NCBI RefSeq assembly: GCF_001679785.1
Contig: NZ_CP016288.1
Coordinates: 183,809 to 247,808, forward strand
From: Rhizobium leguminosarum
Lineage (GTDB): Bacteria; Pseudomonadota; Alphaproteobacteria; Rhizobiales; Rhizobiaceae
Length of the DNA: 64,000 bases
Direction: 5' to 3'
How positions within the stretch are numbered: position 1 is the stretch's first letter; every line of letters begins with the position of its first letter. The notes under the pieces were generated by a model. The model saw only the letters and a program-made list of their open reading frames with translations, ran no database searches and was not told where the DNA came from. Shown here piece by piece: positions 28,823 to 34,316 of this stretch. The translations under genes were made by a program, and so were the position numbers.

Positions 28823-28826
28823 TTAG
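28823..28826. repeat. Target-site duplication TTAG (left) of the IS1380 element
   Basis: TTAG lies directly outside the left terminal repeat and recurs directly outside the right one at 34302-34305. A 4-bp duplication is within the IS1380-family range. Confidence 0.75.
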
Positions 28827-28839
28827 CCCGAATCTCTCA

Positions 28840-30753
28840 GTGCGCCCCGACGGCGCGTAACACCAGTGGAGGAAGGTTCCACCCAGATAATTGTCGATAG
28901 GTCTGGTAGCTGACGAGCGGCTTGGCAGGGTAACCGGCCGGGCCGAAGCCTCGTGACAAAGGCCGCCTTGGGCGGTTGAGCAATCCAGTGGGCCGTAACG
29001 AGTGTGAAGCCTGAGCAGGCCTCGAAAGTGAAGATGCGGATGCCGACCCTCCTGAGATTAGGGGAAGGCAGCACGAGCGGGGAAGAAATCGACGAGCGCA
29101 CCCGCTCGATTCGCCGGGGTAGTGGGCACGGCACGCTGGAAAGGTGGTGCGGGTAATCGGGGGAGACCCGTCCCGGGCGAGGGTAGCGGCCTCAACGGCG
29201 TGCTTGGCACGCCGGTCTGGAGCGGGAGTCGGACAGGGTCATACTACTGCTGAGGCCGGGTAATGCCGGTGGAGGGAAGGCCCCTGACTTCTGGTGTGCT
29301 TTTGACGATGATGAGGTGGAGGTGATTGGCGATGAGCCTGCAAACGCCTGATAAGATCCGGACTCTTCAGAGGAAGCTGTATCGTAAAGCGAAGGCGGAG
29401 CCTGCCTTCCGCTTTTACGCTCTCTACGACAAGATCTGTCGCGACGACATTCTGTACCATGCCTATCGGCTAGCCCGCTCCAATGCTGGTTCGCCGGGCG
29501 TCGACGGCGTGACGTTCGCGCGGATCGAGGCGGCGGGAGCGCAGGAGTGGCTGGCGGGACTGCGCGAGGAACTCGTTTCGAAAACGTATCGGCCCCAACT
29601 GGTACGACGGGTCATGCTACCAAAGCCTGGAGGTGGAGAAAGGCCGCTCGGTATTCCGACTATTCGGGATCGTGTCGTCCAGACTGCCGCCAAGCTGGTG
29701 CTTGAACCGATCTTCGAGGCGGATTTCGAGGATAGCGCCTATGGCTATCGCCCCAATCGGGGTGGTGGTCAGGCGGTCAAGGAGGTGCACCGGCTAATAT
29801 GCCGGGGTTACACCGATGTGGTCGACGCTGATTTGTCGGGATATTTCGACTCGATTCCGCACGCGGACCTTCTACGATCCGTGGCCCGCAGGGTCGTCGA
29901 CAGGCATGTGCTGCATCTTATCAAGATGTGGCTGAAAGCGCCTGTTGAAGAACGGGATGGCGACGGCAAGCGGCGCATGAGTGGTGGTCGCAACGCAACG
30001 AGCGGAACGCCTCAGGGCGGTGTCGCGAGTCCGATGCTGGCCAACATCTACATGAACCGTTTCCTGAAGCATTGGCGGCAGACCGCACGGGGAGAAGCGT
30101 TCCAAGCCCACGTCGTTTCCTACGCCGACGACTTCGTCATCCTCAGCCGTGGTTATGCGGAAGAGGCTCTGTCGTGGACGCGGCTGGTTATGGCGAAGCT
30201 CGGGCTCACCCTCAATGAGGCGAAAACCTCGGTGAGGAATGCACGACAGGAGCATTTCGACTTCCTTGGCTATAGCTTTGGCCCCGAGCATTTTCGCAAG
30301 GATGGTCATTGGTATCTGGGCGCAAGCCCATCTCGGAAAAGTGTCCAGCGGCTCAAGAAAAAGGTGAGCGATTTGCTCGTGCCCGGTGAGATGGGGACAT
30401 GGCCCGACGTGCGGAACCGGCTCAACCGCCTTTTGCGCGGCTGGTCGACCTACTTCGGTTATGGCTCCCGCCTTCCGGCATATCGGGCGGTCGACAACCA
30501 TGTTTACGAGCGTGTGCGAAACTTCCTCACGCGGCGGCACAAGGTGGCAGGGCGCGGGTCGCACCGTTTCTCCGATGACTATGTCTTTGGAGAGGGCGGT
30601 GTGCTGCGCCTTCGACGCGTCCACATCGGGCCACCTCCGAGAGCTATGCGGTGAAGCCAGTCGGAAAGCCGGATGCCGGAAATCGGCACGTCCGGTTTGA
30701 CGAGCGGGGACAGGAAACGGGACTCATGTCACCGCGCCTGTCCTCGACTCTAC
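28840..30753 (+). mobile_element. Group II intron, copy 1
   Basis: A 1914-bp intron beginning GTGCGCCCCGACGG and ending CCTCGACTCTAC. Boundaries come from comparing the two copies: sequence identity starts right after CTCTCA and ends at CTCTAC, after which the flanks differ. Near the 3' end (about 30658-30753) are a domain V-like stem (AGCCGGATGCCGGAAATCGG, continuing CACGTCCGGTTTG) and a domain VI-like stem. Ribozyme domains I-III occupy 28840 to ~29320 and the maturase gene sits in domain IV. It lies on the same strand as the transposase, inside the left terminal repeat of the IS1380 element. Confidence 0.9.
29326..30654 (+). CDS. ltrA: Group II intron reverse transcriptase/maturase, copy 1
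   Basis: A 442-residue intron-encoded protein. RT domains are clear: the fingers start RLARSNAGSPGVDGVTFARI, RPLGIPTIRDRVVQTA is RT-2, GVASPMLANIYM is RT-4, and the catalytic YADD is at about 266-269 (VVSYADDFVILSRG). Domain X (maturase, ~365-420) reads LLRGWSTYFGYGSRLPAYRAV. After it only a short basic tail follows, so no HNH endonuclease domain is visible; retrohoming would use a replication-fork primer route, as known for endonuclease-less introns. It promotes splicing and insertion of the intron. Identical in sequence to copy 2. Confidence 0.93.
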   Translation: MAMSLQTPDKIRTLQRKLYRKAKAEPAFRFYALYDKICRDDILYHAYRLARSNAGSPGVDGVTFARIEAAGAQEWLAGLREELVSKTYRPQLVRRVMLPKPGGGERPLGIPTIRDRVVQTAAKLVLEPIFEADFEDSAYGYRPNRGGGQAVKEVHRLICRGYTDVVDADLSGYFDSIPHADLLRSVARRVVDRHVLHLIKMWLKAPVEERDGDGKRRMSGGRNATSGTPQGGVASPMLANIYMNRFLKHWRQTARGEAFQAHVVSYADDFVILSRGYAEEALSWTRLVMAKLGLTLNEAKTSVRNARQEHFDFLGYSFGPEHFRKDGHWYLGASPSRKSVQRLKKKVSDLLVPGEMGTWPDVRNRLNRLLRGWSTYFGYGSRLPAYRAVDNHVYERVRNFLTRRHKVAGRGSHRFSDDYVFGEGGVLRLRRVHIGPPPRAMR

Positions 30754-30833
30754 AAGTAAGGGGTGCATCGGGCCTGCGAATCTGAGAAACTGCTTTTACG
30801 ACAAAGGCTTACCAGATCCGTTACGGAGGCCCG

Positions 30834-32216
30834 ATGCAAACACACTGTATCTCCGCGCAGTTCGGATTTAAAGGCTTCGACGGCCACAAAGTTATCGCTG
30901 GTTTTGACGGCGGCGCGATCACCTCGGATGCCGGTGCGCTGCTGCTTCGCCACGTCGATGGGGCCATCGGGCTATTCGACCGGGTGGCCGGCTGCTTCAT
31001 TGATGGCCGCGATCGCAAGTGCACGGTCCACAGCATGCGCACGCTGGTCGGGCAGCGCATTGCAGCGATCGCGCTGGGCTATGAGGATGTCGACGATCAC
31101 GACACGCTGCGCCACGACCCGGTACTTGCGCTGCTGTCGGAGCGGCTGACGCCGAAGCGACAAGACTGTGCGGTGCTTGCCGGCAAATCCACGTTGAACC
31201 GGCTGGAGCACGGCCGCCCCGGCGCGCCGACGCGCTATCATAAGATCGCCTATGACGCAGGGGCGCTGGAAGCGCTATTCGTGGAGCTGTTCGTGGACGC
31301 ACACGACAGGCCGCCGGAGGAGATCGTGCTCGATCTCGACGCCACCGACGATCCGCTGCACGGCCATCAGGAAGGGCGGTTCTTCCACGGCTATTATGAC
31401 GGCTATTGCTATTTGCCGCTCTACATCTTTTGCGGCCGGCATCTGCTTTCGGCCAAGCTGCGACGCTCCAATATCGACGCCAGCGCCGGCGCGGTCGAGG
31501 AGGTCGGGCGGATCGTCAAGCAGATCCGCGCGCGCTGGCCCAACGTGCGCATCATCCTGCGGGCCGATTCCGGCTTTGCCCGCGACGAACTGATGGACTG
31601 GTGCGAGGCAAACGGCGTCGACTATGTCTTTGGCCTTGCCCGCAACAAGCGGTTGGAAAAGAAGATCGCCGAGGCCCTGGAGGAAGCGAGCCTTGCGGCC
31701 AAGGCAAGCGGCCAGGCTGCCCGCGTCTTCCGCGACTTCCTGTGGTCGACGAAGGGCAGCTGGTCATGCCGGCGGCGGGTGGTGGCCAAGGCCGAATGGA
31801 CGATGGCGGGGGCCAATCCGCGCTTCATCGTCACCTCGCTGGAACCGGAATACTGGGCGGCACAACCGCTTTACGAGGAGCTTTACTGCGCCCGTGGCGA
31901 TATGGAGAACCGCATCAAGGAATGCCAGCTCGATCTCTATGCCGACCGCACCAGCGCCCACACCATGCGCGCCAATCAGTTGCGGCTCTGGTTTGCATCC
32001 TTGGCCTATGTGCTGATCTGTGCGCTACGCCGCCTCGGCCTCACCGGTAGCCGCCTTGCCGATGCCACCTGCGGCACGATCCGATTGAAGCTCTTGAAGA
32101 TCGGCGCCCAGGTCCGCATCTCGGTCCGCCGCATCAAGGTGGCGATGGCTTCGGCCTGCCCATATGCCGAGGAATTTGCCCTGGCTCACGCCCGAATATG
32201 CGCCGCGGCCCGATGA
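30834..32216 (+). CDS. IS1380-family transposase
   Basis: A 460-residue transposase with GGAGG upstream of its ATG. The N-terminus (FKGFDGHKVIAGFDGGAITSDAGALLLRHVD) is the typical IS1380 opening. Candidate DDE residues are the Asp of VLDLDATDDP (~167), the Asp of RADSGFARDELMDW (~243) and the Glu in YCARGDMENRIKE (~357). The C-terminal region (ANQLRLWFASLAYVLICALRR) is conserved in the family. Intact and of usual length. Because intron 1 lies upstream in sense orientation, its splicing could affect transcripts that begin outside the element. Confidence 0.92.
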   Translation: MQTHCISAQFGFKGFDGHKVIAGFDGGAITSDAGALLLRHVDGAIGLFDRVAGCFIDGRDRKCTVHSMRTLVGQRIAAIALGYEDVDDHDTLRHDPVLALLSERLTPKRQDCAVLAGKSTLNRLEHGRPGAPTRYHKIAYDAGALEALFVELFVDAHDRPPEEIVLDLDATDDPLHGHQEGRFFHGYYDGYCYLPLYIFCGRHLLSAKLRRSNIDASAGAVEEVGRIVKQIRARWPNVRIILRADSGFARDELMDWCEANGVDYVFGLARNKRLEKKIAEALEEASLAAKASGQAARVFRDFLWSTKGSWSCRRRVVAKAEWTMAGANPRFIVTSLEPEYWAAQPLYEELYCARGDMENRIKECQLDLYADRTSAHTMRANQLRLWFASLAYVLICALRRLGLTGSRLADATCGTIRLKLLKIGAQVRISVRRIKVAMASACPYAEEFALAHARICAAAR

Positions 32217-32374
32217 TGCCGCCGGACCCGAGCCCTTCCCGCCAACGACAGAGGATACATCGCCGGACCAGACAAAACGCCCAACATCGCGGCGACGGCC
32301 GCCCGCGTCCTCGGCGGGGAGCCCAGCCCCGACCGCCGCCAACAGCCCAACGTCAACCAACGCCACAGGCGCTG

Positions 32375-34288
32375 GTAGAGTCGAGGACAGGCGCGGTGAC
32401 ATGAGTCCCGTTTCCTGTCCCCGCTCGTCAAACCGGACGTGCCGATTTCCGGCATCCGGCTTTCCGACTGGCTTCACCGCATAGCTCTCGGAGGTGGCCC
32501 GATGTGGACGCGTCGAAGGCGCAGCACACCGCCCTCTCCAAAGACATAGTCATCGGAGAAACGGTGCGACCCGCGCCCTGCCACCTTGTGCCGCCGCGTG
32601 AGGAAGTTTCGCACACGCTCGTAAACATGGTTGTCGACCGCCCGATATGCCGGAAGGCGGGAGCCATAACCGAAGTAGGTCGACCAGCCGCGCAAAAGGC
32701 GGTTGAGCCGGTTCCGCACGTCGGGCCATGTCCCCATCTCACCGGGCACGAGCAAATCGCTCACCTTTTTCTTGAGCCGCTGGACACTTTTCCGAGATGG
32801 GCTTGCGCCCAGATACCAATGACCATCCTTGCGAAAATGCTCGGGGCCAAAGCTATAGCCAAGGAAGTCGAAATGCTCCTGTCGTGCATTCCTCACCGAG
32901 GTTTTCGCCTCATTGAGGGTGAGCCCGAGCTTCGCCATAACCAGCCGCGTCCACGACAGAGCCTCTTCCGCATAACCACGGCTGAGGATGACGAAGTCGT
33001 CGGCGTAGGAAACGACGTGGGCTTGGAACGCTTCTCCCCGTGCGGTCTGCCGCCAATGCTTCAGGAAACGGTTCATGTAGATGTTGGCCAGCATCGGACT
33101 CGCGACACCGCCCTGAGGCGTTCCGCTCGTTGCGTTGCGACCACCACTCATGCGCCGCTTGCCGTCGCCATCCCGTTCTTCAACAGGCGCTTTCAGCCAC
33201 ATCTTGATAAGATGCAGCACATGCCTGTCGACGACCCTGCGGGCCACGGATCGTAGAAGGTCCGCGTGCGGAATCGAGTCGAAATATCCCGACAAATCAG
33301 CGTCGACCACATCGGTGTAACCCCGGCATATTAGCCGGTGCACCTCCTTGACCGCCTGACCACCACCCCGATTGGGGCGATAGCCATAGGCGCTATCCTC
33401 GAAATCCGCCTCGAAGATCGGTTCAAGCACCAGCTTGGCGGCAGTCTGGACGACACGATCCCGAATAGTCGGAATACCGAGCGGCCTTTCTCCACCTCCA
33501 GGCTTTGGTAGCATGACCCGTCGTACCAGTTGGGGCCGATACGTTTTCGAAACGAGTTCCTCGCGCAGTCCCGCCAGCCACTCCTGCGCTCCCGCCGCCT
33601 CGATCCGCGCGAACGTCACGCCGTCGACGCCCGGCGAACCAGCATTGGAGCGGGCTAGCCGATAGGCATGGTACAGAATGTCGTCGCGACAGATCTTGTC
33701 GTAGAGAGCGTAAAAGCGGAAGGCAGGCTCCGCCTTCGCTTTACGATACAGCTTCCTCTGAAGAGTCCGGATCTTATCAGGCGTTTGCAGGCTCATCGCC
33801 AATCACCTCCACCTCATCATCGTCAAAAGCACACCAGAAGTCAGGGGCCTTCCCTCCACCGGCATTACCCGGCCTCAGCAGTAGTATGACCCTGTCCGAC
33901 TCCCGCTCCAGACCGGCGTGCCAAGCACGCCGTTGAGGCCGCTACCCTCGCCCGGGACGGGTCTCCCCCGATTACCCGCACCACCTTTCCAGCGTGCCGT
34001 GCCCACTACCCCGGCGAATCGAGCGGGTGCGCTCGTCGATTTCTTCCCCGCTCGTGCTGCCTTCCCCTAATCTCAGGAGGGTCGGCATCCGCATCTTCAC
34101 TTTCGAGGCCTGCTCAGGCTTCACACTCGTTACGGCCCACTGGATTGCTCAACCGCCCAAGGCGGCCTTTGTCACGAGGCTTCGGCCCGGCCGGTTACCC
34201 TGCCAAGCCGCTCGTCAGCTACCAGACCTATCGACAATTATCTGGGTGGAACCTTCCTCCACTGGTGTTACGCGCCGTCGGGGCGCAC
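32375..34288 (-). mobile_element. Group II intron, copy 2 (inverted)
   Basis: Same 1914-bp length and the same end sequences as copy 1, on the opposite strand: GTGCGCCC at 34288 reading leftward to CTCTAC at 32375. The translated maturase and even the antisense frames agree with copy 1, so the copies appear identical. It lies within the right terminal inverted repeat of the IS1380 element, antisense to the transposase. Identity implies very recent retromobility or gene conversion. Confidence 0.9.
32474..33802 (-). CDS. ltrA: Group II intron reverse transcriptase/maturase, copy 2
   Basis: A 442-residue protein identical to the maturase of copy 1, including the YADD active site (~266-269) and domain X, and likewise lacking an HNH endonuclease domain. 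Transcribed toward the IS1380 transposase 3' end, so strong expression would give antisense RNA to the element. Either copy could serve both introns in trans. Confidence 0.93.
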   Translation of the reverse strand: MAMSLQTPDKIRTLQRKLYRKAKAEPAFRFYALYDKICRDDILYHAYRLARSNAGSPGVDGVTFARIEAAGAQEWLAGLREELVSKTYRPQLVRRVMLPKPGGGERPLGIPTIRDRVVQTAAKLVLEPIFEADFEDSAYGYRPNRGGGQAVKEVHRLICRGYTDVVDADLSGYFDSIPHADLLRSVARRVVDRHVLHLIKMWLKAPVEERDGDGKRRMSGGRNATSGTPQGGVASPMLANIYMNRFLKHWRQTARGEAFQAHVVSYADDFVILSRGYAEEALSWTRLVMAKLGLTLNEAKTSVRNARQEHFDFLGYSFGPEHFRKDGHWYLGASPSRKSVQRLKKKVSDLLVPGEMGTWPDVRNRLNRLLRGWSTYFGYGSRLPAYRAVDNHVYERVRNFLTRRHKVAGRGSHRFSDDYVFGEGGVLRLRRVHIGPPPRAMR

Positions 34289-34316
34289 TGAGAGATGCGG
34301 GTTAGAGGAGTGGCTT

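Follow-up and report, generated by a model that had tools for sequence, protein, structure and literature searches.

A doubly loaded IS1380 element in Rhizobium leguminosarum with identical, opposite-facing group II introns directly behind its two terminal repeats

RmInt2 of Sinorhizobium meliloti is described as a group II intron that uses both inverted repeats of the insertion sequence (IS) ISRm17, by which at least one target for RmInt2 is ensured on the lagging-strand template (PMC5894124); ISRm17 is assigned to ISNCY, group ISDol1 (PMC10194956). The natural target of RmInt1 in the same species is described within ISRm2011-2 of the IS630 family, where insertion blocks the spread of the IS (PMC5894124), and in IStrons a group I intron is described in combination with an IS (PMC4227781). 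In this study, a stretch of 64,000 nucleotides from Rhizobium leguminosarum (contig NZ_CP016288.1 of assembly GCF_001679785.1, positions 183,809 to 247,808; hereafter the window) was analysed, in which one IS1380 element holds two group II introns facing each other, each directly behind a 13-bp end repeat. IS ends and IS copies with such an intron are called loaded, those without it empty, and individual copies and loci are given by their labels (L023 and so on) where needed.

The architecture of the element is given in Table 1. As proposed in the original prediction, the two introns are mirror images with identical maturases: nucleotide alignment of the left copy with the reverse complement of the right one gave 0 differences over 1914 nt each, and both encode the same 442 residues. 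Chance similarity of the two introns is ruled out by the 1914/1914 identity. The 13-bp repeats outside the introns, CCCGAATCTCTCA and CCCGCATCTCTCA, match with 1 mismatch; beyond them, outer and inner sequences at the two ends are dissimilar. Both sides of the element carry TTAG. Without the introns the element amounts to 13+1621+13 = 1647 bp, and the expectation that this is a normal IS size is borne out by two empty copies of 1647 bp in the same genome (L027 and L028), both with CTAG on either side and with bodies that each differ from that of the window at 7/1621 positions. Plasmid records matching the window flanks numbered 92, and 24 of the 25 listed span both flanks without the element, with 39% query coverage and a record span of about 3.5 kb (4.7 kb in one, which has an IS3 gene); one of the 24, Vaf-108 plasmid 7, was aligned and showed an uninterrupted site.

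Table 1. Features of the intron-loaded IS1380 element, in window coordinates.
Feature	Position	Strand	Basis
Left target-site duplication TTAG	28823..28826		sequence; element-free related site aligned
Left 13-bp terminal repeat CCCGAATCTCTCA, 5' exon (intron-binding site 1, IBS1) of the left intron	28827..28839	+	
Group II intron, left copy, 1914 bp, GTGCG...CTCTAC	28840..30753	+	
Left intron 5' domains	28864..29003	+	Rfam RF02003
Left loop of exon-binding site 1 (EBS1), TGAGAT; TGAGA pairs with TCTCA at the IS end	29053..29058	+	
Left maturase open reading frame (ORF), 442 aa, start codon uncertain, no endonuclease domain listed	29326..30654	+	
Left intron domains V-VI	30664..30753	+	Rfam RF00029
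IS1380 element body, 1621 bp	30754..32374	+	
IS1380 transposase, 460 aa, uninterrupted	30834..32216	+	
Group II intron, right copy, identical to left, antisense to transposase	32375..34288	-	
Right intron domains V-VI	32375..32464	-	Rfam
Right maturase ORF, identical 442 aa	32474..33802	-	
Right EBS1 loop	34070..34075	-	position from identity with left copy
Right intron 5' domains	34125..34264	-	RF02003
Right 13-bp terminal repeat CCCGCATCTCTCA, 5' exon of the right intron	34289..34301	-	
Right target-site duplication TTAG	34302..34305		sequence

According to Rfam and protein models alike, the window holds an IS1380 transposase and a group II intron that encodes a reverse transcriptase/maturase. 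Both intron copies match the group II models for domains D1-D4 (RF02003, 102.8 bits) and D5-D6 (RF00029, 44.3 bits) above the gathering score. The maturase reaches 350 bits with TIGR04416 (cut-off 300) and contains PF00078 and PF08388; RVT_1 and GIIM are its only Pfam domains at E values of 0.001 or below, and no endonuclease domain was found among these matches. The ORF between the introns scores 411.9 bits with the IS1380 transposase model NF033539 (cut-off 180). Members of the IS1380 family have short terminal repeats and a short target duplication, seen here as the 13-bp repeats and as TTAG in the window or CTAG at the empty copies L027 and L028.

The genome (8.57 Mb in 8 contigs) was surveyed for further copies. 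Seven introns were found, all identical to those of the window and all directly behind an IS1380 end, at the same nucleotide of a repeat of the form CCCG(A/C)(A/T)T(C/T)TCTCA. Six lie at right ends and one at a left end, that of the window, whose IS is the only copy loaded at both ends and the sole doubly loaded copy found. Forms with zero, one and two introns, which the original prediction had suggested searching for, thus all occur in this genome, the last only once. The IS count was 12 copies from 15 matches, after two split copies had been merged and a 73-bp match (L022) left out. The loaded copies are spread over several IS subtypes, and four have a close empty twin: the bodies of L030 (loaded) and L024b (empty) show 0/1618 differences, those of L025 and L029 1/1612, those of L024a and L028 1/1621 together with 4 gap positions, and those of L026 and L031 0/291, which is all the body covered by the match of L031. 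Behind the identical introns the IS bodies differ by up to 19% (311/1611). Since loaded and empty ends with near-identical bodies coexist, comparison of the copies indicates that in this genome the intron hops between IS copies and moves onto existing ones. The earlier proposal that the IS disperses the intron finds no support here, where matched loaded and empty bodies differ by 0, 1 and 1 substitutions, and the loaded subtypes with empty twins rule out that the intron spread in this genome solely by way of the IS. Mesorhizobium provides a similar comparison: between M. sophorae and M. loti the intron is 98.0% and the IS body 90.0% identical, and the greater likeness of the intron again suggests movement between IS copies. 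An M. loti plasmid also contains two IS copies with a common 2734-bp interruption near body position 570, one directly behind an intron and the other without an intron match.

Two of the copies show further structure. L024 (G000:C8, 5960-5990) is a tandem IS1380 pair with ends 2 bases (CG) apart, the right end of the second being empty, and L023 (G000:C1, 4600-6494) is a loaded IS1380 split by another insertion, whose 508-aa ORF resembles, by eye only, an IS transposase.

How the intron may recognise the IS end was addressed with an alignment of 32 introns, covering 420 bases from the intron start together with the 5' exon of each. These introns were hand-picked from readable 5' junctions, and near-copies (e.g. 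L069, L099, L057 and L143) as well as more distant introns (e.g. L083-L086) were left out. The loop TGAGAT of the window intron varies together with the exon across the set. At IS1380-type ends TGAGA faces TCTCA and TGAAT faces ATTCA; other pairs are TTTTGC and GCAAAA (L093, IS5-type), GGCCAAT and ATTGGCC (L108), GGTCATT and AATGACC (L100), and TGCCATT and AATGGCA (L058). When every possible five-base helix between the intron alignment and 30 exon bases was scored, this loop came out on top, with 4.22/5 pairs in matched and 2.09 in mismatched rows at exon positions -7 to -3, an excess reached by 0/100,000 permutations (kinship ignored). Over exon bases -5 to -1 the figures are 4.62 and 2.66, and the last five exon bases pair 5/5 in 20/32 introns. 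This covariation points to EBS1-IBS1 pairing with the 5' exon. Group IIC introns, which target terminators or attC sites, are described with a hairpin 5' of an IBS1 of 3-4 bp (PMC7923331). Judged by eye only, the 5' exon shows no hairpin before the insertion, and pairing with EBS1 covers at least 5 bases in those 20 introns.

The maturase search (80 loci kept of 154) placed relatives behind YTAR-CC(C/T/G)G-N6-TCA in Sphingobium, Mesorhizobium, Methylocystis, Bradyrhizobium, Rhodoblastus, Acidiphilium, Gluconacetobacter and Sinorhizobium. Those of Mesorhizobium, Sinorhizobium, Bradyrhizobium, Methylocystis and Sphingobium lie at IS1380 ends, with similar motifs elsewhere, and left-end cases are found in Sinorhizobium and Mesorhizobium as well. 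An IS1380 transposase lies near 10/19 loci, with about 36-44% identity to that of the window at L066, L068, L069, L099, L070 and L052, 68% at L071, 80% at L055 and 97-98% at L049 and L051. For L053 one is visible in a longer stretch (L246; second copy L247). None was found at L067, L094, L102, L120, L138, L081, L056 and L050, several of which are at contig ends; L050 has an IS5-family gene nearby, and the site of L067 merely resembles an IS1380 end. Given the wide divergence of the transposases, the IS ends that EBS1 follows are quite different. A pattern search for loaded IS1380 ends (at most 1 mismatch) in 394 genomes of the family returned 1/394, the window's own; more diverged relatives, including those reached through the maturase, escape this pattern. 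In one genome of the same genus (G032), contigs L038 and L046 both break off 122 bases into the intron that follows CCCGCTTTTCTCA, the pattern expected where repeated loaded ends interrupt the assembly.

A first maturase tree had 33 rows, four of them frame-broken. In a second tree of 26 rows (without L089, L092, L100, L102, L105, L106 and L108, with L067 classed as 'other', and with the root not inferred), users of IS110 form one group, as do users of IS5, and the users of IS1380 ends require five changes. IS1380 ends may therefore be the older habit, as far as an unrooted tree suggests. The IS110 and IS5 labels were taken from the annotation of near relatives and from protein motifs. Sister introns (L072, L076-L078, L080, L089, L105, L054, L057, L074 and L093) lie at a motif resembling IS110/IS5 transposase genes, and their EBS1 largely matches it.

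Transposition of an IS1380 element followed by homing of the intron to each end through EBS1 pairing is very probably the best explanation of the window. The identity of the introns, their position, the empty counterparts and the EBS1 covariation are established by sequence comparison. The IS1380 element would first have transposed into a YTAR site, and a mobile group II intron would then have entered exactly where each terminal repeat meets the IS body, presumably in two separate homing events. The intron RNA would recognise the end by pairing of TGAGA in the EBS1 loop with TCTCA, the last bases of the repeat; since both ends carry TCTCA reading inward, the two insertions face each other. Insertion is likely to proceed by reverse splicing and target-primed reverse transcription, for which the maturase, in which no endonuclease domain was found, may use a primer at the replication fork as described for RmInt1. 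The predicted homing to IS ends, with both ends usable, agrees with the seven copies at IS1380 ends and with the EBS1 covariation. The two mirrored targets foreseen are both usable, yet may not be equal, as right ends are more often loaded (6/12 visible right ends, 1/10 visible left ends, Fisher p = 0.074).

Several observations weigh against this explanation. The strand bias expected of an intron that lacks an endonuclease is weak and not significant: loaded ends number 5/11 on the lagging and 2/10 on the leading side (p = 0.36), which speaks neither for nor against such a bias. For this comparison the polarity of GGGNAGGG was counted in sampled 20-kb pieces, placing the chromosome origin near 3.9 Mb and the terminus near 1.4 Mb. 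Ends were classed by hand, the L031 end being left out as its contig was not sampled, and five of the 7 introns face the lagging-strand template, polarity being uncertain near the window and on the second contig. Pairing is incomplete in 12/32 introns, including most IS110-type rows, which pair 4/5 over the last five exon bases, and the permutation test for EBS1 ignores the relatedness of the introns. Of the EBS1 and EBS2 pairings proposed for testing, that of EBS1 with the 5' exon was recovered across the 32 introns; the helix scan gave no clear signal for an EBS2 partner, and in the window only about 5 bases pair. Loss of introns from loaded ends, instead of gain, is possible in principle and less likely. 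Gene conversion could have homogenised the introns, and the hybrid joints of L025 and L023 described below indicate that recombination also shapes the copies.

One alternative is that the loaded IS is the spreading unit, with one or a few intron entries followed by copying as DNA through transposition or recombination. This is possible though doubtful. In M. sophorae the loaded copies L068 and L099 have the same 1613 bases behind the intron at two sites, and their introns agree apart from an insertion inside that of L099. The four full-length empty copies of this genome are 96-97% identical and lack the 3' junction GGGGGGGTTGG common to loaded L068, L069 and L099. In Rhizobium, L023 and L051 (the latter from R. 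leguminosarum Vaf-108) lie at different sites yet are 100% identical over 2074 bp that take in CTAG, terminal repeat, intron and the neighbouring IS DNA. On the other hand, the body of L069 departs from that of L068 after 481 bases, several partial copies occur in M. sophorae (two with 98-99% identity over 658-728 bases), for which the check for introns covered only some, and the unequal flanks of L099 (CTAG left, TTAG right) make recombination as possible as transposition. The M. sophorae sequences favour copying of an already loaded IS as DNA; the suggestion that the IS may be locked in place is not borne out, a loaded IS having seemingly been copied there. The window genome, with its loaded copies on several subtypes and their empty twins, shows no sign of IS movement after loading. 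An insertion shared by two introns of Mesorhizobium sp. AR02 was considered as proof of loaded-IS transposition and dropped, because the IS DNA behind the introns differs and the inserts are in opposite orientations. The inserted element itself (at about 5157-11988 of L246, from an AR02 plasmid, and in the corresponding part of L247) encodes several tyrosine recombinases/integrases by annotation, has 92-bp perfect inverted repeats and lies in the domain V region of the two related introns; it may target the domain V hairpin.

A single insertion followed by recombination, in which the intron at the second end came from another loaded copy by gene conversion or crossing over, is rather unlikely for the window. 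Recombination of this kind is suggested elsewhere in the genome by L025 (G000:C2:3124-6685), in which the intron joins the terminal repeat of one subtype to the body of another, with 2 changes in the repeat against the single body difference to L029. The flanks of L025 are not joined in any of 15 listed plasmid records (best 15 of 201), and the sequence that usually adjoins its right flank matches another place in the genome at 89%, where no IS end follows within 150 or so bases. L023, identical to L051 over the outer 2074 bases, is further in nearer to L029 (99.6% vs 97.8%). Recombination between identical introns is the simplest reading these mosaics suggest. In the window, however, each terminal repeat is still attached to its own body end, thus there was no net inversion, and the flanks on both sides are TTAG, the arrangement that simple insertion leaves. 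Moreover, with only 1/10 left ends loaded, no other left-end donor is known in this genome. The inversion once expected from such long inverted copies has therefore left no net trace in the window, although L025 suggests that intron copies do recombine. An assembly artefact, with one end truly loaded and the mirror copy created in assembly, is very improbable: seven identical 1.9-kb copies are difficult for short-read assembly, but the genome is in 8 contigs, each intron copy has its own context, the window combines two different repeat sequences with matching TTAG flanks, and independent left-end cases occur in Sinorhizobium and Mesorhizobium.

Homing to the ends of an existing IS leaves room for a wider and more tentative proposal, which we consider possible without favouring it, namely that the intron lineage is old and specialised on IS1380 ends, with EBS1 retuned for each end, and that the loaded IS is mobile with up to two passengers. 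By inserting between repeat and body, exactly where the repeat ends, the intron interrupts neither the transposase ORF nor the 13-bp repeats, so a loaded IS may remain mobile. If so, IS1380 ends would still work with 1.9 kb separating repeat from body, and this would reveal what the transposase really needs, and if the lineage is specialised in this way, two selfish elements would spread each other with neither silenced. The matched loaded and empty copies, 0-1 substitution apart, provide a natural test of a retroelement and a DNA transposon sharing a genome, and the covariation series lists introns retargeted in nature, which is useful for designing gene-targeting introns for the laboratory.

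Among known systems, RmInt2 is the closest: both are rhizobial introns of a class without an endonuclease domain and target both inverted repeats of one IS, as seen here at left (1/10) and right (6/12) ends. The strategy of targeting both repeats is hence already known from RmInt2 and ISRm17. The host IS differs, being IS1380 here and ISNCY/ISDol1 for RmInt2, and the assignment to class D is stated for RmInt2 alone. In a plasmid protein search that matched at least 5000 records, S. meliloti was absent from the 60 listed (0/60), down to about 41% identity, which makes a close relation of the window intron to RmInt2 unlikely. RmInt1 is likewise a rhizobial intron that lives in, and homes to, an IS; unlike RmInt1, the window intron lies between repeat and body and spares transposase ORF and repeats. 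IStrons also link a ribozyme with a transposon, but as one chimeric unit with a group I intron, whereas the two elements here are also found apart. Among the titles and abstract openings listed from the open-licence literature, none reported an intron in IS1380 ends, three papers containing both terms being left unread. As far as these searches show, novelty lies in the IS family, the lineage of the intron, the copy filled at both ends and the covariation series, added to a targeting strategy already described for RmInt2.

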